DNA from: Paenibacillus darwinianus
Lineage (GTDB): Bacteria; Bacillota; Bacilli; Paenibacillales; Paenibacillaceae
Reading direction: 5' to 3'
Assembly: GCF_000598065.1 (NCBI RefSeq)
Contig: NZ_KK082115.1
Coordinates: 44,774-108,773, forward strand
DNA length: 64,000 bases
Positions 29,863-49,477 of this stretch are shown here, in pieces. The stretch's first letter is position 1. Every line of letters begins with the position of its first letter. The notes beneath the pieces are model-generated. The model searched no databases and was not told where the DNA came from. It saw only the letters and a list, made by a program, of their open reading frames with translations. Both the position numbers and the translations under genes were made by a program.

Positions 29863-30798
29863 ATGATGCAAGAATTAACCGAAATCCAGAAGGTGAATAT
29901 GGAGCCTGGCGTGATGGTGAACAAGTCGTTCGCGCCGCCGGTCAGACGGCTGCTGTGGCCAAGTATCATTTTTGTAGCTTTGATCACGCAAATTCCGTTC
30001 CTGATCACGATTTATTACAGCTTCCAAGACTGGAATCTGATGAGACCCGATAAGGGAATCACTTTTGCGGGAATCCGCAATTATTCGAAGATTTTGCTCG
30101 ATGCGGCGTTTTACGAGGTTTTGTGGAACACGTTTGTATTGACGGGCGGGACGCTTGTCATCTGTCTGGTTATGGGACTTTTCTTTTCCTTTCTGATGAA
30201 CCGGGATTTTTTCGGCAAGGGCATCGTCAGGACGATGCTGGTTTCCCCATTCTTTATTATGCCTGCCGTTGCCGGTATCGTGTGGAAAACAATGCTTCTA
30301 AATCCGAGCTTCGGATTTACGGCTTATTTTGCTTCCGTATTTCGATTTCCGCTGATCGATTGGTTGGCGAGTTATCCGCTGACGACCATCATGTTTATGA
30401 TCGCCTGGCAGTGGATTCCGTTCTTCATGCTGATTTTGCTTGCGGGGCTGCAATCCGTACCGGACGACGTTATGGAAGCCGCTCATCTGGACGGGGCAAA
30501 CGCCCTGCAGCGGTTTTACAACGTCATTTTCCCGCATCTTCTGAAATATGTTGAAGTTGCGGTTTTGCTGGGCCTGATCTTCATTATGCAGACCTTCGGC
30601 GAGATTTACGTGACGACAGCCGGAGGACCGGGCTTTGCATCCACCAACCTACCCTACTTCGTTTATCGGGTCGGTTTCCAGGGCTGGGATGTCGGCGGCG
30701 CGTCCGCTGTCGGTGTCATCATTGTCATCATCACCATTGCGTTAATGACAGTGCTGTTCAAATTTTTGCGGAAAACGTTTCAAGGAGAACTGTCATGA
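29863..30798 (+). CDS. Polyol ABC transporter permease (MalF/SmoF type)
   Basis: A 311-residue inner-membrane protein with six membrane segments. The N-terminus carries FLITIYYSFQDWNLMRPDKG, typical of polyol permeases. The EAA loop that contacts the ATPase reads VMEAAHLDGANALQRFYNV (near residues 200-218). ATG 29863 is preceded by GTAGGG; ATG 29866 is equally possible. It overlaps the next permease gene by four bases (ATGA). The matching ATPase is not encoded in the window. Confidence 0.9.
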   Translation: MMQELTEIQKVNMEPGVMVNKSFAPPVRRLLWPSIIFVALITQIPFLITIYYSFQDWNLMRPDKGITFAGIRNYSKILLDAAFYEVLWNTFVLTGGTLVICLVMGLFFSFLMNRDFFGKGIVRTMLVSPFFIMPAVAGIVWKTMLLNPSFGFTAYFASVFRFPLIDWLASYPLTTIMFMIAWQWIPFFMLILLAGLQSVPDDVMEAAHLDGANALQRFYNVIFPHLLKYVEVAVLLGLIFIMQTFGEIYVTTAGGPGFASTNLPYFVYRVGFQGWDVGGASAVGVIIVIITIALMTVLFKFLRKTFQGELS

Positions 30799-31610
30799 AA
30801 AAATTATCAGCTGTCTTGGTGACCTTGTTTACTTATGTGGTGGCCGTCCTTTATTTCTATCCCGTGTTCTGGATGCTGATCACCGGCTTCAAAAAAGAGG
30901 GCGATGCGGTGCAAATGCCGCCTTCCCTGTTCTTCAACCCGACGAAAGAGAACTATCAGCTCATTTGGGACAGCGGCGTCGTCTCGTTTTTCAGCAATTC
31001 CGCAGTCGTGACGCTGACCTCCACCCTGTTCGCCCTGCTGCTGGGGGTACCGGCCGCTTATGTTCTGGCGATGTTCAAGCTGAAAAAAGCGGAGGACATT
31101 CTGTTCTGGTTCATTTCTACCAAATTTCTGCCGGCGGCAGGCATTATTATCCCGATCTACATGCTGTTCAAAGAGCTGCAGCTGCTGGATAGCCTTTGGG
31201 CCCTGATCCTGCTCTACACAGCGATGAATGTGCCCCTTGTAGTATGGATGATGCGCTCTTTCTTCAAAGAAGTGCCGCACGAGCTGTTGGAAGCGTCAAG
31301 GGTGGACGGCGCATCCGATATCCGGACCTTTTTTCAAATTACGCTGCCGCTCGTCAGACCCGGCCTCATTTCCACCGCATTGCTGTCGCTCATCTTTGCC
31401 TGGAACGAATTTTTCCTGGCCGTGAGCTTGACCGCCACCAGCGCGGCGACGATGCCTGTCCATATGGCGTCCTTCATGACGCAGCAGGGGCTTTTCTGGG
31501 CTAAAATGTCTTCGGTCGCTTCGATTGCGGTCGTACCGGCTTTGCTCCTGGGATGGTTTACGCAAAAGCAGCTGGTGCGCGGAATGACGATGGGCGCTGT
31601 AAAAGGTTGA
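30795..31610 (+). CDS. Polyol ABC transporter permease (MalG/SmoG type)
   Basis: A 271-residue second permease with six membrane segments. The EAA loop ELLEASRVDGASDIRTFFQI (about 158-177) and the end FTQKQLVRGMTMGAVKG are typical of MalG-like proteins. It is coupled to the first permease by a four-base overlap. The pair forms the channel for the binding protein at 28363. Confidence 0.92.
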   Translation: MKKLSAVLVTLFTYVVAVLYFYPVFWMLITGFKKEGDAVQMPPSLFFNPTKENYQLIWDSGVVSFFSNSAVVTLTSTLFALLLGVPAAYVLAMFKLKKAEDILFWFISTKFLPAAGIIIPIYMLFKELQLLDSLWALILLYTAMNVPLVVWMMRSFFKEVPHELLEASRVDGASDIRTFFQITLPLVRPGLISTALLSLIFAWNEFFLAVSLTATSAATMPVHMASFMTQQGLFWAKMSSVASIAVVPALLLGWFTQKQLVRGMTMGAVKG

Positions 31611-31640
31611 TTTTATATTAAAAATAGGGAGGAATATGAA

Positions 31641-32663
31641 ATGACGGACAGAACCATGAAAGCGCTCGTGATTGAGGAGCCGCGTAAAGCGGTCGTGAAA
31701 CAGATGCCTTACCCGAAGCCAGGACCGAATGAAGTGACCATCAAGGTGAACAGCGTCGGCATTTGCGGCACGGATGTTCATATTTTTGAAGGCGACTTTA
31801 TTTCCGAGTATCCGATCATTCCGGGACATGAGTTTTCCGGCACAATTGCGGAGCTTGGCGAAGGCGTTACAGGCTGGCGGATCGGGGATCCGGTCAGCGC
31901 GGATCCGTCCTTATTCTGCGGCTCTTGCCAATTCTGTCTGACGAACCGCGGCAATCAATGCGAGAATTGGGGAGCGCTCGGCAATACGACCTCCGGCACG
32001 ATGGCCGAGTATGTCGCTGTTCCGGTCAAAAATGTGGTCAAAATGCCTGAAGGAATGTCCTTCTCGCAGGCCGCGTTCATTGAGCCGCTCGCTTGCGTCG
32101 TGCATGGCATGAACCGGCTGCAGGTGAAGGCGGGGGACCGGGTTATATTGTTCGGGGCGGGCGCCATGGGGCAGCAGCTCGTGCAGGCAATCGCCAGATC
32201 GGGCGCCTCGGAGCTGGTCGTTGTCGACGTATCGCAGCAGAAGCTGGACATAGCTTGCAAGTATGGCGCGACGAAAGGGGTTCTGAGCCGGGATCTGGGC
32301 GAGGAGCTGTCCAAGGAGAAATACCCGTACGGCTTCGACATCGTGGTCGATGTCACAGGCATTCCGGCCGTCATCGAGCAGGCGTTCGACTACATGGGAC
32401 CGACGGCGAAGTTTCTGCAGTTCGGTGTGACGTCGGAGAACGCCAAGGTGCAATTGAGTCCTTTCAAGCTGTATAACAAGGACTGGACGATCATCGGCTC
32501 CATGGCCATCAACAATACGTTTATTCCGGCTTACCATTGGCTGAAGGACGGCAGAATCGAAGTCAATCACCTCGTTTCGAAGCAGATTACGCTCGAGGAA
32601 ACGATCGACTTCTTCAATTCTCCCCGGGATCCGAATCACCTGAAAATACAAATCAAAATCTGA
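31641..32663 (+). CDS. Zinc-dependent polyol dehydrogenase (D-arabitol/sorbitol type)
   Basis: A 340-residue medium-chain dehydrogenase. Catalytic zinc site residues are in GICGTDVHIFEGDF and GHEFSG; structural-zinc cysteines lie in FCGSCQFC..NQC; the nucleotide fold is ILFGAGAMGQQLVQA. It starts at ATG 31641 after GGGAGG, 30 bases behind the second permease, as the last gene of the importer operon. It likely oxidises the imported pentitol or hexitol to a ketose with NAD+. With the xylulokinase at 37728, D-arabitol or xylitol to D-xylulose is a coherent route, but that is inference. Confidence 0.87.
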   Translation: MTDRTMKALVIEEPRKAVVKQMPYPKPGPNEVTIKVNSVGICGTDVHIFEGDFISEYPIIPGHEFSGTIAELGEGVTGWRIGDPVSADPSLFCGSCQFCLTNRGNQCENWGALGNTTSGTMAEYVAVPVKNVVKMPEGMSFSQAAFIEPLACVVHGMNRLQVKAGDRVILFGAGAMGQQLVQAIARSGASELVVVDVSQQKLDIACKYGATKGVLSRDLGEELSKEKYPYGFDIVVDVTGIPAVIEQAFDYMGPTAKFLQFGVTSENAKVQLSPFKLYNKDWTIIGSMAINNTFIPAYHWLKDGRIEVNHLVSKQITLEETIDFFNSPRDPNHLKIQIKI

Positions 32664-32693
32664 CCGGACTTTCTCGGGCAGGACGAAAACATG

Positions 32694-32735
32694 CAGAACG
32701 GTCAGTTTAGGCAGGCAGCCTGACTGACCGTTCTG
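32694..32735. terminator. Bidirectional hairpin between convergent genes
   Basis: Thirteen-bp perfect stem CAGAACGGTCAGT / ACTGACCGTTCTG with a small inner GGC/GCC pairing. It separates the plus-strand dehydrogenase from the minus-strand lipoprotein gene; T-runs are weak on both sides. Confidence 0.65.
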
Positions 32736-32779
32736 GCATTTGACGGCCGTACCCCGAGGCGGTGCGCCGGCTGCCCCGT

Positions 32780-34153
32780 TTATCCCGATTGGTCCAGCAT
32801 GGTATCGATTTTCGGTTTTAATTCATCCAAGCCCTCCCGGGCGCTCGAATACTCTCCGTTGACGATTTTTCTTAACGTTCTGGCCCATTCGTTCGCCGTA
32901 TCGAAAAAGGCAGGCTGAGGGGTGAACAAGACTGCGGCGTTCTTCAAATGCGAATCCAGCGTTTGCGCAAAACCGTCCGCCCGGCCGATCAGCTTCAGAT
33001 AGTCCTTGTCCTGCAATACCGATTTGCGCGCCGGATGAACGACGTTGGCATTCATCGCGGCCCATTGAATAAATGGTTTCGAGCTGAAGTATTGCATGAA
33101 CAGCCAGGAGGCCTTCTTGTTGTTGGACGCATTGTTCATGCCGAGCCCCCAGGCCCAAAGATTCGATGTGACCGGTTGGTTCAGATCGGACAGCGGAGCC
33201 GGGGTCCAGGCGATATTCCCCGCTTCCTTGGAGTAGCCTTCGACATTCTGGATATACGAGTTAATGTCCGCATCGAAAAGCATGGCGACTTTGCCGGAGC
33301 CCAGGGCGGCGCCCGCCTCGTTCCATGGATTCTGCTGCCAGGAGCTTGCGGAGGTGCATTTGTGGACGAGGTCTACCCATAGCTCGGTGGCCCGGACAGC
33401 CTCGTCCGAGTTGACGGCTGAGCGCAGCTTGCCGTTCTCCGACACTAGGTCTTTGGCGCCGAAGTTTATATAAGTCGTAATGAAAGAAGTCGATAGGCTC
33501 GTCCATTTATCGGAGATCCGCAGCGACAGCCCGTCGATGCCGCTGCCGCTGAGCGCTTCGCACCCGTTCATCAGCTCGGACAGCGTTGAAGGCGGCTTTA
33601 GCGCATACTGCTCGAAAATCCGTTTGTTGTAGGCGAGGGAGTTAAGCTCGAAGCCGATCGGGACTGCCCATTGATAGCCGGTTCCGACCGGATCGCCGGG
33701 CGTCAGATTCCATTTCATCGAATCGAAGACCTTCGGCTGGAAATCCCGGAAGTCATAACCGGGTATGAGCAGGGCGGGATCGGCCAGCATCTCGTCCAGA
33801 CTCTGCATCAGCCGCTTCGAGGCATGCTCCCAAATATAATACGTTCCGGTCATAAACACATCCGGAGTGCCCCGGCGATCGTTGAGCGCCAGATCCAATT
33901 TGTCGATATAATAGTCTTCCGGCGTTATGATATAATTTACTTGGATACCGGTCAAACTCTCGAAATCCCGAAGTTTCTGCACGATTGCCGCCGAATACGG
34001 GTGCTGATTGAGCATGACGTTGATCCGTTGGCCTTCGAAGGCTCGCCAATTGTATTCAGGCTCCGGCTGCGGCCGCGGCTGGCATCCCGCAATAAAAACG
34101 AGTAAACATAAACTGGCGAAAACCGAGAATCTGAGGAAACCTGAGCCGAGCAC
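32780..34153 (-). CDS. Extracellular solute-binding lipoprotein, putative sugar sensor partner
   Basis: A 457-residue SBP_bac_1 protein with a lipoprotein signal (FASLCLLVFIAGCQPRP; Cys about residue 23) and a proline-rich linker. The fold follows NYIITPEDYYIDKLDLALND, then DVFMTGTYYIWEHASKRLM and WAWGLGMNNASNNKKASWLF. I set the start at GTG 34153, about ten bases after GGGAGG; a longer frame to 34252 lacks a ribosome site and would bury the lipoprotein signal. It is divergent from a response regulator and sensor kinase and has no permeases of its own on this strand. It may feed the 29863/30795 permeases or present sugar to the kinase. A cre-like site lies just upstream. Confidence 0.85.
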   Translation of the reverse strand: MLGSGFLRFSVFASLCLLVFIAGCQPRPQPEPEYNWRAFEGQRINVMLNQHPYSAAIVQKLRDFESLTGIQVNYIITPEDYYIDKLDLALNDRRGTPDVFMTGTYYIWEHASKRLMQSLDEMLADPALLIPGYDFRDFQPKVFDSMKWNLTPGDPVGTGYQWAVPIGFELNSLAYNKRIFEQYALKPPSTLSELMNGCEALSGSGIDGLSLRISDKWTSLSTSFITTYINFGAKDLVSENGKLRSAVNSDEAVRATELWVDLVHKCTSASSWQQNPWNEAGAALGSGKVAMLFDADINSYIQNVEGYSKEAGNIAWTPAPLSDLNQPVTSNLWAWGLGMNNASNNKKASWLFMQYFSSKPFIQWAAMNANVVHPARKSVLQDKDYLKLIGRADGFAQTLDSHLKNAAVLFTPQPAFFDTANEWARTLRKIVNGEYSSAREGLDELKPKIDTMLDQSG

Positions 34154-34176
34154 CAAACACAAACCTCCCAAAAAAG

Positions 34177-34207
34177 AGAAATCGCTTCCACGAATCATTT
34201 CATTATA
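34177..34207 (-). promoter_or_regulatory. Candidate promoter -10 and cre box for the minus-strand lipoprotein
   Basis: On the minus strand TATAAT (34202-34207) is followed by TGGAAGCGATTTCT (34177-34190), which fits the CcpA consensus at 12 of 14 positions. A cre just downstream of the promoter is the usual repressing arrangement. No good -35 box is seen. Confidence 0.5.
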
Positions 34208-34269
34208 ACGCACTAGGTTTATTATATATAATATTTCATTTCTCGGCACCATTGGAGGTAACTTTAACG

Positions 34270-35811
34270 ATGAAAGTGTTAATCGTCGACGATGAATTTC
34301 TCGTTCGAATGGGGCTGAAATCGATTATCCCCTGGGAAGAAAAAGGGTTCACCTTGCTGGGCGACGCCAAAAACGGCGCCGAAGCGATTGACATGTTTAA
34401 CGAGACGCAGCCTGATATTCTGTTGACCGACATCTCGATGCCGTTCATGGACGGGCTGGAGCTGATCCGTATTCTAAAAGGGAAGAGCCCATCGTTAAAA
34501 GTCATCATTCTATCCAACTACGACGATTTCAAATATGCGCAAAAGGGCATTCAGCTAGGGGTCAATGAATACATCCTGAAGCATGAAATTTCGCCGGAAA
34601 AGATTTTGGCGGCGCTTGAAAGTGTTACCGGGCCTGCCGGCGGCAGTGAATTCCCGGCCGCCGCGGCCGGCAGGAAAGACTATAGCACGCAGCTGTATCA
34701 CCTGATGGTTAAGGATAATCTTTCCGAACAGGAAAAGGAAGACGTTCTTAATACCTTGAAAAAAGATTTACAAGGCAGCTATTTTACGGTGATCTCCATG
34801 CTTCTGCAATTCAGCGGAACGGAAGCGGATTCACGTGATCTGACGAGAGAAGAAACCATTGAGAAGTTGGCGCTGGAAACGCTGAAGGGCAAGGATTTCC
34901 AGGTTTTTTCCCTCCTGCGAAAAAATGAAGTCCTATTTATTGTGAACACCTCCGAAGCCGGCGGGATAAACGAAAGAATCAAAAAGATGATGCACACCGT
35001 CAAAAATAATACGAAGCAGTTTCTGAACCGGAACCTGTTTATCGGAATCAGCTCAGCCGGCGGCGGTCTCGAGGAGCTGCGCATGCTGTATGAGCAGTCC
35101 AAAACGGCACGGGAACAGAGCTTTTTCTCCAATGATATCATGGTCTGCTCCGAGGAACGGGTCATGGAGCAGGACAACGGCGCGCTCCCGCGCCTCGACA
35201 TGGAGCAGCTGAATAAATTGGTCAAATTGAAGGACACCGGCCGTGTCGAGAAGTTTCTGCTGGATGTGTTCGACATCCTCTACAACCTGCAGAGTGTAGC
35301 CGCCGTGCAGAACATATTCCAACGTTTGATCAAGGATAATGCGGAGCTGTTCGCCGCGAACAACCTTATTCTGAACCAGCAATCTTTCGGCGATTTTTCT
35401 GGCTTTGAGGATGTCCGGCAATATGTCATCGACGTATACAAAAAAAATTGCCTGCATAACGAGCGCAACATTCATTCCGTCCATATTACGAAGAGCATTC
35501 ATTACCTGAAAAAAAACTATAGCGACAATATATCGCTGTCTCAGCTGGCCGATTATCTGCAAATTAACAAAAGCTATTTGAGCCTGCTGTTCAAGCAGGA
35601 AATCGGCGTGAATTTCACCAATTACCTGAACAACATCCGCATCGAGAAAGCGAAGGAGCTGCTGCTCCATTCCAATTACAAGGCCTATGAGATCGCCAAG
35701 CAGATCGGCTTCGACAATCCGTATTATTTCAGCAAGGTGTTCAAGGAAACGACGGGCATGAACTGTCAGGAGTTCAAAAGGACATCCGCATCGCTCGGCC
35801 ATGACAGATAA
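34270..35811 (+). CDS. AraC-type two-component response regulator (YesN family)
   Basis: A 513-residue regulator. The receiver domain (1-120) has the acidic pair in VLIVDDE, phosphoacceptor Asp54 in LLTDISMP, and Lys near 104 in EYILKHE. A long middle region of unknown fold follows, and the C-terminal AraC DNA-binding domain (about 405-505) has two helix-turn-helix units: ISLSQLADYLQINKSYLSLL and YEIAKQIGFDNPYYFSKVFK. ATG 34270 is chosen with GGAGGT ten bases upstream. It is paired with the kinase 30 bases downstream and probably activates the adjacent polyol genes. Confidence 0.93.
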   Translation: MKVLIVDDEFLVRMGLKSIIPWEEKGFTLLGDAKNGAEAIDMFNETQPDILLTDISMPFMDGLELIRILKGKSPSLKVIILSNYDDFKYAQKGIQLGVNEYILKHEISPEKILAALESVTGPAGGSEFPAAAAGRKDYSTQLYHLMVKDNLSEQEKEDVLNTLKKDLQGSYFTVISMLLQFSGTEADSRDLTREETIEKLALETLKGKDFQVFSLLRKNEVLFIVNTSEAGGINERIKKMMHTVKNNTKQFLNRNLFIGISSAGGGLEELRMLYEQSKTAREQSFFSNDIMVCSEERVMEQDNGALPRLDMEQLNKLVKLKDTGRVEKFLLDVFDILYNLQSVAAVQNIFQRLIKDNAELFAANNLILNQQSFGDFSGFEDVRQYVIDVYKKNCLHNERNIHSVHITKSIHYLKKNYSDNISLSQLADYLQINKSYLSLLFKQEIGVNFTNYLNNIRIEKAKELLLHSNYKAYEIAKQIGFDNPYYFSKVFKETTGMNCQEFKRTSASLGHDR

Positions 35812-35840
35812 GCGATCAACCTACAAAAGCAGGTGTTAGC

Positions 35841-37583
35841 TTGATACAGAAACGAATCTTTCTCTTTATCTCTTCCCTGGTTGTGCTCCTGCTGATTTCG
35901 ATCAGCATCATTGTTTATGTTTATTTTTTTCAAACGATGAGAGAGAAGGAGATCGACAGCGCGGTCCGTTATTCCAACGGCACGAAGCAAAGCGTTGAGC
36001 TCATACTCAGCTTTATGAATAACACGGTCAATTCCATAAGCAAAAACAGCACCGTGATCAAAGAACTGAGCGGCGAGTTTTACAGCAGCGAGGAGGAGGC
36101 GCAGAACTCGCGGACGATTGTACATTCGCTCCTGAGCAATCTCGTTTCGATCCACGAATATATCCGCAAAATCGAAATCATCGGTAACCGAGCGGAGGGC
36201 AAATATTACAGCACGATCACCGGAGAGGTCGAGGGGCGCATTGCGGAGCGCAATGCGGAGATCGACGAGAAGCTGAAGGGCTGCTATAAGGATGCAGGGG
36301 ACACCTATTATTTTTTGTGCGTGAGCGGCAACGTTATCTCGTTCGTCGTCCCCATTTTTCAGCCGCAATCGGGCTATCGGATCGGATTTCTGGTGATCGA
36401 TATCAACCGGTCGTATCTGGAGGAGATCGTCGCGACGACGACGGGCGGCGCCGATGAGAAGGTGCTGATCGTCACGGCGCAGGACGAGACCATCCTCAGC
36501 TACCCGTACACCGCCAATTTAAGCGGCATCACCGAGCAGTATCCGCAGCTGTTGAACCTGGAGCAGACGCAGATCAACGGGAAGATTTTCGGCAAGGAAA
36601 GCATTATCGTCTCCGATTCCATCAGCTACAGTAATTGGAGAATCGTGCGCATGATCGATACGGCCAAAATCAACGAGTCGATGAACCAGTTGGGACAAAT
36701 CGGGCTGCTCGCGCTGCTGCTCTCTCTGATCATCTCGTCCGTGGCATCCTACCGCCTGTCGATCTACTTTACCAAACCGATTATCGAGCTGAACAGAAAG
36801 ATTAAGCAATTCGAGAAGGGCAACATGGAAACCAGAATCGATATTATCCGCAGCGATGAATTGGGCCAATTAAGCAACTCCTTCAACAAAATGGTCGTCA
36901 AGCTGGATACGTTGCTGAAAAGAACGATCGAGGAGGAGCAAAAGAAAAGCGAGATGGAGTTCGAGCTGCTGCAATCGCAGATCAATCCCCACTTTCTGTA
37001 CAATACGCTGGATTCGATCAGATGGCTTGCGGTCATTCAAAACGTTGAAAATATCGGCCATATGACGACATCGCTGATCCAGCTGCTGAAATACAGCATT
37101 TCGCACAAGGGCCGCATGGTGACCCTGTCGGAAGAAATCAGCATGATCAAAAATTATATAACGATCCAGAAATACCGGTACGGCGATATTTTTGAGGTGG
37201 AGTTCGACATCGAGGATGAGGCCAGGGACTGCCGTGCCTTGAATCTGATCCTGCAGCCGCTGGTGGAGAATGCGATCTATCACGGGATGGAGTCCAGGGA
37301 AGAAGGCGGCGTCATCCGAATAGAGGCGTATATCCGCGACGGCGAGCATCTGGAGATCAGCGTCGTCGACAACGGTTTGGGAATGGACGAGAATGAATGG
37401 CGGAGCGGAGCGGGCGTTACGAAAAAAATGCATACCGGAATCGGCCTTAAAAACGTCGAGGAACGGATCAAGCTGTATTTTGGCGAGCAATACGGCTTAA
37501 CCATCAGCAGCAGCATCGGTGAAGGCACCAAAATGACGATTGTGCTCCCCAGGCTTTACGAGGACAGCGCTGCCGCCAACTGA
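35841..37583 (+). CDS. Sensor histidine kinase (YesM family)
   Basis: A 580-residue membrane sensor. There is one helix at residues 5-30, an extracellular sensing domain to about 285, a second helix (LLALLLSLIISSVASY), and a HAMP domain (KPIIELNRKIKQFEKG). The His_kinase domain has the phospho-site in QSQINPHFLYNTLD (His near 382), and the HATPase domain has ILQPLVENAIYHG and VVDNGLGMDENE. The start is TTG 35841 after AGGTG. It pairs with the regulator just upstream. The signal is probably a polyol or sugar, possibly via the lipoprotein at 32780. Confidence 0.93.
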   Translation: MIQKRIFLFISSLVVLLLISISIIVYVYFFQTMREKEIDSAVRYSNGTKQSVELILSFMNNTVNSISKNSTVIKELSGEFYSSEEEAQNSRTIVHSLLSNLVSIHEYIRKIEIIGNRAEGKYYSTITGEVEGRIAERNAEIDEKLKGCYKDAGDTYYFLCVSGNVISFVVPIFQPQSGYRIGFLVIDINRSYLEEIVATTTGGADEKVLIVTAQDETILSYPYTANLSGITEQYPQLLNLEQTQINGKIFGKESIIVSDSISYSNWRIVRMIDTAKINESMNQLGQIGLLALLLSLIISSVASYRLSIYFTKPIIELNRKIKQFEKGNMETRIDIIRSDELGQLSNSFNKMVVKLDTLLKRTIEEEQKKSEMEFELLQSQINPHFLYNTLDSIRWLAVIQNVENIGHMTTSLIQLLKYSISHKGRMVTLSEEISMIKNYITIQKYRYGDIFEVEFDIEDEARDCRALNLILQPLVENAIYHGMESREEGGVIRIEAYIRDGEHLEISVVDNGLGMDENEWRSGAGVTKKMHTGIGLKNVEERIKLYFGEQYGLTISSSIGEGTKMTIVLPRLYEDSAAAN

Positions 37584-41810: not shown

Positions 41811-42629
41811 ATGCCGAGAGAAATCAATAAAGATACGCTGCTGTGCATGTCATTGGCGGGAAGACCGGGCAATTTCGGAACCCGTTTTCACAATTATTTA
41901 TACAATGAGCTGAATCTCAATATTGTCTACAAAGCGTTTACCACGAACGATTTGCAGGCCGCAATCGGCGGGGTGCGCGCGCTCGGGATTCGCGGCTGTG
42001 CCGTGTCGATGCCCTTCAAGGAGGCTTGCATTCCATTCATGGATGAAATGGACGAATCGGCGTCTGTCATTCAATCCGTCAATACGATCGTCAATACCGA
42101 CGGACGGCTTCGTGCATACAACACCGATTACATCGCGATCGCTCAGCTGCTCGACACGTATCAGGTATCGCGCGACTCCGTATTCGCCTTGCGCGGCAGC
42201 GGGGGCATGGCCAAGGCCGTCGCAAGCGCAGTGCGAGATGCCGGGTTCCGCACCGGGTACATCATCGCCCGTAACGAGACGGCGGGACGCGAGCTGGCGC
42301 AAGCCTGCGACTACGAGTGGAAAAGCGAGGTAAGCGGCATCGAGCCGGAGCTGATCATCAATGTGACGCCGATCGGCATGGCGGGAGGCCCCGAATCCGA
42401 GGAACTCGCATTCGCACCCGAGGTGATCGACAAGGTGGAGACCGTATTCGACGTGGGGGCGATTCCCTCGGAAACGCCTCTGATCCGTTATGCCAGGACG
42501 AAAGAAAAAAAGGTGATCACCGGGGCGGAAGTCATCGCGCTTCAGGCATTGGAGCAATTCGTGCTCTATACCGGCGTGCGCCCCGAAGACGAGCTGGTCC
42601 AAAGGGCTGCAGAGCACGCTCGTTCCTGA
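41811..42629 (+). CDS. Shikimate 5-dehydrogenase-like protein
   Basis: A 272-residue AroE-family protein. The N-terminal substrate domain ends in the catalytic-lysine motif GCAVSMPFKEACIPFMDE and the SVNTIVN segment. The nucleotide domain has GSGGMAKAVASAVRDAG and INVTPIGMAGG. It resembles the shorter AroE-like paralogues rather than the main biosynthetic enzyme; the usual GAGGA loop reads GSGGM. It lies three bases upstream of a sensor kinase gene and may form an operon with it, which is unusual for a shikimate enzyme. It might act on quinate, shikimate or a related acid. Confidence 0.82.
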   Translation: MPREINKDTLLCMSLAGRPGNFGTRFHNYLYNELNLNIVYKAFTTNDLQAAIGGVRALGIRGCAVSMPFKEACIPFMDEMDESASVIQSVNTIVNTDGRLRAYNTDYIAIAQLLDTYQVSRDSVFALRGSGGMAKAVASAVRDAGFRTGYIIARNETAGRELAQACDYEWKSEVSGIEPELIINVTPIGMAGGPESEELAFAPEVIDKVETVFDVGAIPSETPLIRYARTKEKKVITGAEVIALQALEQFVLYTGVRPEDELVQRAAEHARS

Positions 42630-42632
42630 TCG

Positions 42633-44462
42633 ATGAAACGGCGGTTTCTGACCTCATTGTCAGCCGTCAGTCTAAGAACGCGGCTGACGTTGTCGTTTAT
42701 CGCGCTGATCATCCTTTCGATTACCGTCATGGGCATCGGCTACATCAGGAAAAGCTCCGAGGTGATTTTGTCGAACGCCAGCCAAACCTCATTGGGTCTG
42801 GTGAAGATGAGCAACCAGTCTCTCGAAGCGAAATTGGCGCGGGTTGAGCAAAGCGCCATCAACATGCATTTGGATGAGGAGCTGTTTCAGTTTGTCAACG
42901 CAACCGATCTGAAAGACAAATAATTAAGCAACGAGAATGACCGCAAAATTACGCGAATTCTGCAAAAATATTTTCCCGCGTCGGAGGATATGTTCTCGGT
43001 CAATTTGGTTACAAAGGACTTTACGTTCGGTCAAAATCCAAACTTCTGGATTCCGAAAACGGATTATGCCATGTCGAATATTTATAAGACCGGTCAACAA
43101 TCGGTTGAGAATACGTCATGGATTCCCACCTATGATTTGCTGGAGCAGTTTTTTTCCGCCGCTCCCTTGTCGCCGGACAAATATCAATATGTATTTACCG
43201 CTACCCGACTGATCAATGTTTCAACGATCCGGAATAATTTACTTCGGCAGATGGATAAGAACATCGAACGCCCGATTCTGATCGTTAATTTTCAAGAATC
43301 GATGATCAAACAGGCTTTCAAGGAAAGCCTGTCGGTTCAAGGTTCTTATTACCAGGTATTTACAGAAGACGGTGCGGTGGTCTCAAGCTCCGCTGCGGCG
43401 GACGACTCGCCTGCTGCAAGCCTGGACTGGATCCGTTACGCGATGTCCAAGGGAAGCGGCACCGAATATATCAACATCAACGGTCAAAAAATGGTCGTAA
43501 ACTTCGATCGGATGGATGTAACAGGATGGCTATCGGCTGTTTACATCCCATACGACAATCTGCTGAAGACCGTCCCGAACATGTTTGCTTATACGATGTA
43601 TTCCATGGTCATCATCATCGTCTTGTCGATCGTGCTCGCTTCTTTTATTTCGGGAAGAATTACTTGGCCGTTAAAAAAGCTTTTGCGCGGAATCAACCGG
43701 ATCGGGGAAGGGAACTTCAACACCAGAATCGAATCGTCCGGCATGCCGGAAGTCAACGTCATCATTCATAAATTCAATCAGATGAACGATAAAATTCAAA
43801 CCTTGATCGAAGAGAACTATGAGACCCATCTGAAAGAAATGGAAGCGGAGCTGAAGGCGCTAAATTTTCAATTCAATCCCCACTTTCTGTATAACACGCT
43901 GAACATTATTAATTATTTGGCGATCGAGAACAAACAAGCCTTGATCAGCAATATGCTCGTGGAGTTATCCGAGATGCTGGAATATACGGCGCAGGACCCT
44001 GGTCTGGTCCATTTCGGCGAGGACGTAAACTACTTGAAAAATTACGTGTTCATCATGAACCACCGGTTCGAGGGGAAATTCACGGTTACCTATGACATCG
44101 ACCCTGACCTGTACCAATATACCGTACCGAAGTTTTTTCTGCAGCCTTTTATAGAGAATGCTTTGATTCACGGACTTGAGGAAATGGAGACGGGCGGAGA
44201 AATCAACGTTGCCGGACGGATGGAGAACGGGCTAAGAATTTTTTTCATTACGGATAACGGGAAAGGCATGCCGGAGGAAACGATCCGGCGCGTGCTTGAA
44301 ACGGGCGACGATCACGGCGGGTTCGGGAAATCGATCGGAATTACAAACGTGAACCAGCGGATTAAAATGCAATACGGCCGTCAGTACGGTGTGCAAATCG
44401 CATCGCAGAGAAATAAGGGAACCGCCGTTACTATCGTGCTGCCGCTCATCCGACCCGAATAG
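42633..44462 (+). pseudogene. Sensor histidine kinase (YesM family) interrupted by an in-frame TAA
   Basis: The frame from ATG 42633 runs 96 codons, meets TAA at 42921-42923, then stays open in the same frame to 44462. Together the two parts make a normal YesM-type kinase of about 609 codons. It has a membrane helix near 18-36 (TLSFIALIILSITVMGIGYI), an extracellular domain, a second helix (MYSMVIIIVLSIVLASFI), HAMP, the phospho-His motif FQFNPHFLYNTLNI (near codon 416) and HATPase motifs FIENALIHG and DNGKGMPEE. One base change (CAA, GAA or AAA to TAA) explains it. The downstream part could start at ATG 42990 but would lack the first helix. Its regulator partner at 47822 is intact. Confidence 0.85.
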
Positions 44463-44606: not shown

Positions 44607-44633
44607 AAATCATTGAAAGCGAGGAACCGTTTT

Positions 44634-45938
44634 ATGAAAAAGGGGATCATCGCCGCTTTATTGGCCGTATCGCTGCTGGCCGGATGCGGCACGGGAGGAC
44701 AAACGAATAATGACGGGCCGGAAGGGAACGGCGCCGCCGAAACAGGCAGCGAGCTGGTGGAGCTTGCCTACTGGCGGCCGCAAGCGGGCGAGGAAGAGGA
44801 CAATGCCTATGTACAACGGGTGGAGGCATTCAACAAAGCTTATGAGGGTAAAATCAAGCTGAATATGGAGGTTATTACGAGGGGCAATTCCTTCGCCTAT
44901 GAGGATAAAATTAACGCGGCCGTCGCTTCCAACACGCTGCCCGACGTGGTTGCGCTTGACGGGCCGAACGTGGCCAACTATGCCGCATCAGAAATCATCA
45001 TCCCGTTGGATGAGTATTTCACGGAAGAGGATATGAACGACTTTGTGCCGTCGATCGTCCAACAGGGCAGCTACCAGGGCAAGTTTTATGCACCGGGGCT
45101 GATCGAGTCGTCGGTGGTGCTGTTCTACAACAAAAAAATCATGGATAAATACGGGATTACGCCTCCCGACAAAATTGAGAATGCCTGGACCTGGGATCAG
45201 TGGTACGACGTCATGAAGCAGACGGCAAAAGACGGCGTTTTCGGAACGAACATGATTAACGATAAAGGCGAGTGGATGACCTATGCGTTCGAGCAGTTCT
45301 GGATTTCGAACGGCACGGATATCGTCAATCCGGAGGGGACCGAAGCCGAGGGCTGGGTCAACAGCGGGCAAGGCATCGAGGCGGCGTCTTTCCTGCAGAA
45401 GCTGGCTAACGAGAAGCTGTTCAATATCGACCCGAAGCCGACGGAATTTGAGGAAGGTAAAGCGGCGACCAAGCTTGGCGGTCCGTGGAACATTCCGGGG
45501 TTTAAAAATTATCCGGACCTTGAATGGGGCATCACTTACTTCCCGAAGAAAGCGGGCGGCACGCAAACCGCGCCTTCGGGCAGCTGGGCGGTAGGGGTCT
45601 CGGCGAACAGCAAGCATCCGAAGGAAGCGGCGGAGGCCGTGAAATGGCTGACCAACAAAGACAGCTCCGTTGTGCTGGCGAAGTCGATCAGCATGCCTGC
45701 TAACCGCAAATCGGCTTATGAAAGCTTGCCGGAATACGATGAATTGCCGCTTCGCGTCATTAAGGAGCAAGTAACGACCGTTTCCCGCGCAAGACCGGTA
45801 ACCCCGGCTTATCCGGTACTGACGCAAAAGTTTGCCGAGGCATTGACGGACATCATGATGGGAGCCGAAGTGAAAAAATCGCTTGATAGCGTCGCAGCCA
45901 CCTATGATGACGAATATAAACGAAACTTCGCCGAATAG
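44634..45938 (+). CDS. Sugar ABC transporter substrate-binding lipoprotein
   Basis: A 434-residue SBP_bac_1 receptor with lipoprotein signal IIAALLAVSLLAGCGTGG (Cys near residue 17). The mature fold includes YVQRVEAFNKAYEGKIKLNM, VLFYNKKIMDKYGITPPDK and AVGVSANSKHPKEAAEAVKW. The start ATG 44634 is preceded by GCGAGGAACC; an earlier in-frame ATG is unlikely. It leads an operon with two permeases and a response regulator. It binds an unidentified oligo- or monosaccharide of the CUT1 class. Confidence 0.9.
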   Translation: MKKGIIAALLAVSLLAGCGTGGQTNNDGPEGNGAAETGSELVELAYWRPQAGEEEDNAYVQRVEAFNKAYEGKIKLNMEVITRGNSFAYEDKINAAVASNTLPDVVALDGPNVANYAASEIIIPLDEYFTEEDMNDFVPSIVQQGSYQGKFYAPGLIESSVVLFYNKKIMDKYGITPPDKIENAWTWDQWYDVMKQTAKDGVFGTNMINDKGEWMTYAFEQFWISNGTDIVNPEGTEAEGWVNSGQGIEAASFLQKLANEKLFNIDPKPTEFEEGKAATKLGGPWNIPGFKNYPDLEWGITYFPKKAGGTQTAPSGSWAVGVSANSKHPKEAAEAVKWLTNKDSSVVLAKSISMPANRKSAYESLPEYDELPLRVIKEQVTTVSRARPVTPAYPVLTQKFAEALTDIMMGAEVKKSLDSVAATYDDEYKRNFAE

Positions 45939-46028: not shown

Positions 46029-46955
46029 ATGCAAACCGCAGCTTCAACGAAGGCGCTTAATCAAAAAAGTGAATCGGCCTCCTTGGGACGGCAGAAGCGA
46101 AGAGAAACCGTTGCAGGCTATGCTTTCATTACACCGGCCGTCATTTTACTCATTGTTTTTCTGGTACTGCCTTTTCTGTTCGCGATCCTGTTCGGCTTCA
46201 CCAAGTTCAACCTGCTGCGGCCCGATAAAATCCAGTTCATCGGTTTTGAAAATTACAAGATTCTGTTCCAAGACAGCCTTTTTTATAAATCGCTGTTCAA
46301 CACGCTGTATTTTACCGCCATCGTCGTTCCCGTCCAATGCGCGGTTGCGCTAATGCTGGCGCTGTTGGTCAATCATCGGCTAAAGCTGCGGAACGCGTAT
46401 CGGATCGCTTATTTCAGCCCGGTCGTCACGTCGATGACCGTTATCGCTATCCTGTGGATTTATCTCTACAATCCGAACGAAGGATTAATCAATTCGGCGC
46501 TCAACTTTTTCGGCATTCCGAACCAGCCTTTTCTGAGAAGCGCAAACCAGGCGATGCATTCGATTATTTTCATGTCCGTCTGGCAGGCGGCGGGTTATCA
46601 GATGATGATATTTCTCGCCGGACTTCAGGGAATACCCGGTGACTTAAATGAAGCATCGTCGATCGACGGGGCGAACAAATTCCAGCAGCTGCGGTTCATT
46701 ACGCTCCCCAGCTTATATAACGTAACGGTATTCGTCCTGACGATTACGACGATTCAGGCGGTAAAGCTGTTCGTGCAGCCGTACATTATGACGAACGGCG
46801 GTCCGGAGAATTCGACAAGGACGCTTGCCCTGCTCATCTACCAGCAAGGCTTCCAGTTCAGGAACGCGGGCTACGCCTCGGCCGTGTCCGTCATTTTTTT
46901 CCTCATCGTCGTGTTCATCTCATTCTCCATGAAAAAATTTCTGAGAGATAAATAG
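46029..46955 (+). CDS. Sugar ABC transporter permease (UgpA/MalF type)
   Basis: A 308-residue six-helix permease. The first helix is FITPAVILLIVFLVLPFLFA, the FGFTKFNLLRPDKIQFIGFE segment follows, and the EAA loop reads LNEASSIDGANKFQQLRFI. ATG 46029 has GGGAGAAGAG before it. It is 90 bases behind the binding-protein stop and 17 before the next permease. Confidence 0.92.
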   Translation: MQTAASTKALNQKSESASLGRQKRRETVAGYAFITPAVILLIVFLVLPFLFAILFGFTKFNLLRPDKIQFIGFENYKILFQDSLFYKSLFNTLYFTAIVVPVQCAVALMLALLVNHRLKLRNAYRIAYFSPVVTSMTVIAILWIYLYNPNEGLINSALNFFGIPNQPFLRSANQAMHSIIFMSVWQAAGYQMMIFLAGLQGIPGDLNEASSIDGANKFQQLRFITLPSLYNVTVFVLTITTIQAVKLFVQPYIMTNGGPENSTRTLALLIYQQGFQFRNAGYASAVSVIFFLIVVFISFSMKKFLRDK

Positions 46956-46972
46956 CGGGAGGACCGATACTC

Positions 46973-47803
46973 ATGACAGACCGCACCGTAAAGCTGCTGC
47001 TAAATCTGACGAATATCGTCATGTCGATTTTGTTCATTACCCCCTTGCTGTGGATGGTCGTTTCGTCGTTTAAACCGGAAACCCGGATTTTTGCGGATCT
47101 GAGCTCGATAAAAGCGTTGCTTCCGCTGAACTTTACATTGGATAATTACAAAGCGGCGTTCGACCGGATTCCGATGATGAAATATTTGAATAACAGCATT
47201 TTTTACGTGTCGGTCATCGCGATCAGCGGGTTGGCGGTCAATTCGATCTGCGGCTATGCGCTCGCCAAGCTGCATTTCAAGGGCAGGGAATTTATTTTGT
47301 CGGCGGTCATTGCGCTTATGATCGTTCCGTTCGAGAGCATCCTGATGCCGCTGTATTTCATTGTCAACAACCTGCAGTGGGTCGACACATGGCCGGCGCT
47401 GATCGTGCCTTTCGTAGCCAACAGCTTCAGTATTTTCATGTTCCGGCAATTTTTTATGGACATTCCGAACGAAATACTGGAGTCGGCTTCAATCGACGGC
47501 TCGTCGCCGATGAAGACATTCGTTTCGATTGTCGTCCCTTTGTCCGGACCCGTTTTTGCAACGGTGTTCATTCTTGATTTCATCAGCCATTGGGGCGACT
47601 TCATGTGGCCGATCCTGGTCACGACGGGCGAATCGCTGCGAAATGTCCAATTGGGCATACAGACCTTTTTTACACTGCCGCCGGTATTCTACGGGCAGAT
47701 CATGGCGACGCTGACGTTCACTACGGTGCCGATCATCCTGCTTTTCCTGCTGCTGCAAAAGTATTATGTGCAAGGGATTACAAGCTCGGGCATCAAAGGC
47801 TAA
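46973..47803 (+). CDS. Sugar ABC transporter permease (UgpE/MalG type)
   Basis: A 276-residue six-helix permease with the N-terminal LLWMVVSSFKPETRIFADL and the EAA loop EILESASIDGSSPMKTFVSI. The end YYVQGITSSGIKG is typical. It pairs with the permease at 46029. No ATPase gene is present, so an MsmX-like ATPase from elsewhere is assumed. Confidence 0.92.
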   Translation: MTDRTVKLLLNLTNIVMSILFITPLLWMVVSSFKPETRIFADLSSIKALLPLNFTLDNYKAAFDRIPMMKYLNNSIFYVSVIAISGLAVNSICGYALAKLHFKGREFILSAVIALMIVPFESILMPLYFIVNNLQWVDTWPALIVPFVANSFSIFMFRQFFMDIPNEILESASIDGSSPMKTFVSIVVPLSGPVFATVFILDFISHWGDFMWPILVTTGESLRNVQLGIQTFFTLPPVFYGQIMATLTFTTVPIILLFLLLQKYYVQGITSSGIKG

Positions 47804-47821: not shown

Positions 47822-49477
47822 TTGATATGGCAGGTGAGTCCTATCCTGAACAAAATAATGGTCGTCGATGATGAGGCTATCCAGCGAAGGGTGCTCGGCA
47901 AGATGATTCGCGAGGTGCTGCCCGAATGCGAGGTCGTTGAGGCGAGCAACGGCAAAGCTGCCCTGGAGCTGGTGAAGACCGATTCGATTGAAGTCGTTAT
48001 TACGGATATCAAGATGCCGATCATGGATGGCTTCGGATTTATCGAGCGCATGAATAAAACCGCGGCCGGAACGAAAATCATCATTTTGAGCGGCTTCCGC
48101 TATTTTGAATACGCCCAGAGAGCCGTACGGCTCGGCGCTTTTGACTATTTGCTGAAGCCGGTGAAGGAAGAAAGCATTCGCCGTTTGCTGCAGGAGGTCG
48201 CGGAAAGCATCCGTACAGAAAAAATGCAGGCCATGGAGCACGAAACGATCAGGAAGAAGCTGCACAGCAGCCAATCCGTTTATTATCAGCACATGCTGCA
48301 GGAATGGACAAGCAACGGCCTCTCTGGGGCCAGGCTGCAGGAGCTGCAGGGCAAATTTTCGTTCGGCGGCGCCGGAGCGGTCATTGTGACGAAAATCGGC
48401 GGCGCCGGAACCGGGGATCTATCGGCGGCCAGGATGCAAGACATGAGGAACAGCATGCTAGCCGGCCTGGAGCGGCAGATGGGTTCGGGCGGAAGGGCCG
48501 TATCTTTTTTTCCCGCGGAAAACAAGCGGACAATGGTAACCGTGTTGACGGCGGAGCTGCCTTCCGAAGTGTCGGCGGGAATTCGGACGGATGGCCTGGA
48601 TGCGTACAGCCGGGCGTTGTCCGGGCAGTATGACGTTCCCGTTACGGTAGGGGTGGGCGGGATACACGGCGATTTTCTGAGCAACGCGAAGATTTCCTGT
48701 AAAGAGGCTTTGGAGGCGGCCGGGTTTCGTTATTTTCTGAAGGACGAGAACGTGATTTTCCACACCGGCGTTTCCGGCAGGATCAAGCCGCTGCGGTGTG
48801 ATTTTCTGAAAGATGAAGAACTGATAAAAGAGCATATCCGGACAATGAAACGGGAAGCTCTCTCTAAATATACGGAGGAACTGTTCGAACGCATTGTGGA
48901 GACCGGTCTGCCCCACCCCGACCAGTGGGCGAAGGCGATTGTCCATATGGCCTATCATATAGCGCCGGTTATCAAGGATTTCGTCGGCGATGAGGATTAT
49001 GAGCGGGGGCTGGAAGATATTGAGAGAAGGCTTACGGCCTGTCACGACTACGCCGATTGCCGAAAACAATTTCTGGAGATTTTAGAACAGTTCATGTATG
49101 TCATCGACAGCAGCCGTACCAGGAAGCATGAAATGATCATTGAGAAATGCATCGCCTATATCGACGCTTATTACGCGGAGGATTTGTCGCTGGACGAAGC
49201 GGCGCGCCAGCTTTATTTCAGTCCGAACTATTTAAGCATGCTGTTTAAAAACCGTCTGGGTCTAACGTTTACGAAATATTTATCCGAGGTACGGCTTAAA
49301 AAGGCGGTCGAAATGCTCGAGAACCGCGATATGAAGGTGTACGAGATCGCCGCCGAGATCGGGTATAAGGACGAGAAATATTTTTACCGTGTGTTCAAAA
49401 CTAAATTCGGCGTCACGCCGGATGAATATCGCAAGCAAAACAAGTCTATCGAAGCTCCTTTTGCGGGAGAGCGATAG
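47822..49477 (+). CDS. AraC-type two-component response regulator (YesN family)
   Basis: A response regulator of about 540-551 residues. The receiver domain begins KIMVVDDEAIQRR and has the phosphoacceptor Asp in VVITDIKMPIMDG (about residue 62) and Lys in DYLLKPVKEE. The C-terminal AraC domain has LSLDEAARQLYFSPNYLSML and VYEIAAEIGYKDEKYFYRVF. The start is unsettled: TTG 47822, GTG 47834, CTG 47846 (seven bases after AGGTGAG) and ATG 47858 are possible. It closes the importer operon and is the expected partner of the interrupted kinase at 42633. Confidence 0.92.
   Translation: MIWQVSPILNKIMVVDDEAIQRRVLGKMIREVLPECEVVEASNGKAALELVKTDSIEVVITDIKMPIMDGFGFIERMNKTAAGTKIIILSGFRYFEYAQRAVRLGAFDYLLKPVKEESIRRLLQEVAESIRTEKMQAMEHETIRKKLHSSQSVYYQHMLQEWTSNGLSGARLQELQGKFSFGGAGAVIVTKIGGAGTGDLSAARMQDMRNSMLAGLERQMGSGGRAVSFFPAENKRTMVTVLTAELPSEVSAGIRTDGLDAYSRALSGQYDVPVTVGVGGIHGDFLSNAKISCKEALEAAGFRYFLKDENVIFHTGVSGRIKPLRCDFLKDEELIKEHIRTMKREALSKYTEELFERIVETGLPHPDQWAKAIVHMAYHIAPVIKDFVGDEDYERGLEDIERRLTACHDYADCRKQFLEILEQFMYVIDSSRTRKHEMIIEKCIAYIDAYYAEDLSLDEAARQLYFSPNYLSMLFKNRLGLTFTKYLSEVRLKKAVEMLENRDMKVYEIAAEIGYKDEKYFYRVFKTKFGVTPDEYRKQNKSIEAPFAGER

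Follow-up and report, generated by a model that had tools for sequence, protein, structure and literature searches.

We report that, in the window of Paenibacillus darwinianus DNA analysed here (64,000 nucleotides in its entirety), the sensor kinase gene of a sugar-importer operon on the forward strand is split by an in-frame TAA at positions 42921-42923. The explanation that we favour, with a probability of roughly 0.7, is that the kinase was inactivated very recently by a single nonsense substitution in a loop of its sensor domain, within a sugar-sensing operon of the YesM/YesN type, a name which we take to cover a kinase with a Pfam His_kinase domain and an AraC-type regulator located beside a sugar ABC importer. 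The initial annotation had offered three options, namely loss of the sensor, read-through of the stop or an error in the sequence. The first is the best supported since intact orthologues carry no stop at this position and several relatives have other lesions in this signalling pair, while read-through found no support and an error is the main rival.

Translation of positions 42630-44462 shows a kinase frame which starts at ATG 42633, runs for 96 codons, meets the TAA as codon 97 instead of forming the uninterrupted frame of a YesM-type kinase, and continues for 512 codons to a TAG at 44460-44462. The 5′ part (42633-42923) encodes the first membrane segment and the beginning of the sensor domain. 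The 3′ part (42924-44462) encodes the remaining sensor domain, the second membrane segment, the HAMP, His_kinase and HATPase_c domains and the terminal TAG. That the TAA splits a YesM-type sensor kinase, as initially proposed, is confirmed by this translation and by homology to intact relatives across the stop. The kinase motifs announced for the continued frame are also present: Pfam matches to PF06580 (His_kinase, E = 2.8e-20), HATPase_c (6e-10) and HAMP (1.6e-6) all lie 3′ of the stop, together with stretches resembling what we take to be the H-, N- and G-boxes. In contrast, the remark that one base separates the TAA from a sense codon is true but uninformative, as it holds for any stop.

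In the read-through frame, hydropathy windows starting at residues 12-22 and 315-329 reveal two membrane segments, as in a YesM-type kinase, the first 5′ of the stop and the second at about residues 315-347. The sensor domain between them would be extracellular. No dCache match was found by Pfam in either part of the window kinase, and the P. zanthoxyli orthologue gave a weak dCache_1 match, below the cut-off. An AlphaFold model of an intact kinase orthologue (mean pLDDT 52) was too poor for a fold search.

The genes downstream of the kinase are intact, as stated in the initial annotation for the importer and the regulator. The extracellular sugar-binding protein (SBP_bac_1; 44634-45938, with a start at 44613 or 44634), permease 1 (BPD_transp_1; 46029-46955), permease 2 (BPD_transp_1; 46973-47803) and the response regulator (Response_reg and AraC-type HTH; 47822-49477, exact start uncertain) each form a single open frame on the forward strand, as judged by ORFs, Pfam domains and orthologues. 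Gene order and domains thus place an AraC-type response regulator and a sugar importer at one locus, as in YesM/YesN-type systems. Scans for promoters and terminators gave results at or below the shuffled background. Two other features of the window were observed. A shikimate 5-dehydrogenase gene (41811-42629, NCBIfam NF009202 above cut-off) stops 3 bases short of the kinase ATG and in its frame, and no counterpart was matched in the 28 other loci described below. A second YesM-type kinase/regulator/permease set lies upstream, at 29959-37556.

To place the split kinase among its relatives we used 29 orthologous loci, the window included and duplicates removed. These came from a sensor-domain scan of genome contigs (10 loci), followed by searches of genera and of two families. 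The last family searches were run at E ≤ 1e-58 and E ≤ 1e-70, cut-offs strict enough to miss short relics such as that of Cohnella (see below), so that broken copies are possibly undercounted there. The gene order kinase, binding protein, permease, permease, regulator is kept in 27 of the 28 other loci. A GH32-like gene occurs in the fetched region of 20/29 loci, usually after permease 2 and before the regulator, and Pfam GH32N and GH32C domains were confirmed for two of these 20 genes, which hints at fructans or sucrose-type sugars as the substrate in the relatives. No GH32 gene was found at the window locus or in the other examined stretches of its contig. The GH32 gene of P. puerhi (L062 16507-17870), which follows the regulator, seems to carry a frameshift.

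The kinase is open in 23 of the 29 loci and not open in six, among them the window. Intact orthologues thus span the site of the stop in 23/29 loci, and the TAA is a disabling lesion by comparison with them. Since these 23 kinases align on both sides of the stop, the split is far beyond chance. At the stop column they carry Tyr (11), Asp (7), a gap (2) or another residue (3); the gapped sequences, G594 and G607, are the two nearest intact orthologues. These mixed residues and gaps indicate that the sensor-domain loop in which the stop sits is variable and tolerates indels. Tyr codons are one substitution away from TAA. A distant paralogous kinase with 33% identity (L081, G236:C1:2374510-2375379) also contains one in-frame TAA.

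Apart from the stop, the kinase shows no sign of decay. It departs from the consensus at 3 of the 191 columns that are invariant in the 23 intact orthologues, which is similar to the departures of its partners (binding protein 4/224, permease 1 1/179, permease 2 1/161, regulator 3/92). The median ratio of kinase to importer distances is 1.69 for the window, within the middle 90% of 232 intact pairs (1.57-2.19), and its nearest intact orthologue shares 71.3% identity with it before the stop and 71.1% after the stop. No second lesion was found in its 609 codons. In simulations of a neutral gene with this sequence, a second lesion appeared at a median of 4-21 substitutions, and within 15-97 substitutions (0.8-5.3% of the gene) in 95% of cases, depending on the assumptions. 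Neither relaxed constraint nor further lesions, which might be expected of a pseudogene, are thus seen, although a very young lesion does not require them. The absence of decay fits a very recent mutation, and fits equally well a stop that is an assembly error or a product that is still in use.

The main rival is therefore that the kinase is intact and the TAA stems from an error in the assembly or consensus. We consider this unlikely, but it carries the most weight among the alternatives. The window belongs to a draft genome, probably derived from a metagenome, of 3.0 Mb in 111 contigs and 75% complete, and the preserved constraint and lack of a second lesion described above are what an intact gene would display. 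Likely artefacts also exist elsewhere in the set. In G396, lesions affect the kinase, permease 2 and the regulator, and the mean ORF is 215-233 aa, compared to 268-307 aa in the other genomes sampled (the window's own contig left out). Several damaged genes together with short ORFs led us to treat G396 as an error-prone assembly. In G236, the kinase lacks one base in an A run and the regulator one in a T run, but ORF lengths are normal; homopolymer losses combined with normal ORFs make it ambiguous. Both loci were first counted as broken and then set apart, as artefact and ambiguous case, respectively. The window differs from them in that its TAA is a substitution and not a homopolymer indel. 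Among the 25 kinase matches of its genome, only the split kinase has a stop inside the matched stretch, and none of the other sets compared has ORFs as long as those of its contig. An error-rich assembly is not supported for the window, given these normal ORF lengths and kinase matches. No internal stops occurred in the kinase matches of two other genomes of the genus (0/38 and 0/31). A codon-usage scan of the contig for further genes split by stops failed to distinguish coding from antisense frames and was set aside.

Translation could alternatively restart at ATG 42990-42992, the first in-frame ATG past the stop, to give a kinase of 490 aa that would lack the first membrane segment and some of the sensor domain and would perhaps be active independently of the signal. 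A GGAGG at 42983-42987 lies just 5′ of this ATG, and the conservation of the kinase part would suit continued use. Nevertheless, the spacing between GGAGG and ATG is only 2 nt, the purine-rich stretch encodes a conserved Ser-Glu-Asp motif, loss of the first membrane segment would probably upset membrane topology, and a very young stop would leave the frame equally intact. Moreover, of the 28 aligned rows (window included), 8 have Met at this column and the others V, L or F, and a conserved internal start was rejected on this ground. Altogether, a restart appears improbable. Read-through of the stop or recoding of the codon, suggested by a frame that is open and constrained past the stop, is hardly credible and was rejected, since none of the other 27 aligned orthologues has a stop at this column, so that it is not conserved as in a read-through gene, and TAA normally ends other genes here, for instance permease 2 at 47803.

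Inactivation of the kinase is consistent with the fate of the same signalling pair in relatives. The P. doosanensis kinase (L059 8704-10507) is frameshifted at the second membrane segment and also interrupted by a TAA within its ATPase domain; importer and regulator are intact. The kinase of P. cisolokensis (LC2-13A) has lost one base in the H-box. In Cohnella sp. CFH 77786 (L064 8698-9452; same place in L041), about 150 kinase codons are fused to the AraC tail of the regulator and the importer genes between them are deleted, leaving a relic of the whole operon. P. rhizophilus (L056 13874-15502) presents the mirror case, an intact kinase and a regulator whose matched stretch is interrupted by a TGA as its codon 140. 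As these lesions differ in kind and place, they arose as separate events. A record error is unlikely for P. doosanensis, with its two lesions, and for Cohnella, with its large deletion, and possible for the lesions of the other relatives.

When G396, G236 and the Cohnella deletion were dropped, point lesions were counted in 3 of 26 loci for the kinase, 1 of 26 for the regulator and 0 of 78 importer genes. That all four lesions fall in signalling genes has a probability of about 0.08, given that these two genes account for 1160 of 2178 codons. The counts thus hint that signalling genes are lost more often than importer genes, but for a sample of this size the bias is not significant.

If the kinase was indeed inactivated by the nonsense substitution, translation from the normal start would end after the first membrane segment and yield no kinase domain. 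By analogy with the cua cluster discussed below, the intact kinase would respond to a sugar outside the cell by phosphorylating the AraC-type regulator, and the regulator would switch on the importer. A regulator deprived of its own kinase may then no longer induce the importer or, alternatively, may rely on a basal level of activity or be driven by a different kinase of this class, much as RisA of Bordetella pertussis depends on RisK (PMC5020355). Both the loss of kinase activity and this effect on the importer are inferred.

Taken alone, the window case is probably an ordinary, recent loss of a sensor, a routine nonsense mutation affecting one of the many sensor-kinase paralogues of a Paenibacillaceae-like genome. 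Its slight wider relevance is that orthologous systems show varied lesions of kinase and regulator while the binding protein and permeases stay intact. A bolder proposal, which we regard as rather doubtful, is that this clade repeatedly discards the sensing half of a sugar-importer operon and keeps the importer, the window being the youngest example. If so, a truncated or missing kinase would perhaps free the importer from its original signal, by constitutive expression or by takeover by another YesM-type kinase, and the pattern could be tested as importers escaping their own sensor.

Among the papers listed on sugar-importer two-component systems, kinase pseudogenes or Paenibacillus YesM/YesN, none dealt with this locus, and the accessible part of a review (PMC10766802) contains nothing on this system. 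Compared to known systems, the window has the same domains and operon make-up as the YesM/YesN-type systems located beside sugar ABC importers; it differs from these relatives by the broken kinase frame and the absence of the GH32 gene. In the cua cluster of Ruminiclostridium cellulolyticum, a two-component system also adjoins a sugar ABC importer and, according to the portion of the report available, its regulator targets the region 5′ of the importer genes (PMC5663094). Unlike in the window, a second binding protein is thought to sense there, cellodextrins are handled, and that portion reports no broken kinase (PMC5663094). The other comparison concerns the kinase lesion itself. In Bordetella pertussis, as described in the available part of the source, RisS is a frameshifted kinase pseudogene, RisA is functional and RisK is needed for full RisA activity (PMC5020355). 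RisA belongs to the OmpR family and has RisK as its other kinase, whereas the window regulator is of AraC type and a kinase that might rescue it is conjectural. Within the limits of what that part covers, the two cases nevertheless resemble each other in that the neighbouring kinase is broken and the regulator is kept, as a functional protein for RisA and as an open frame in the window.
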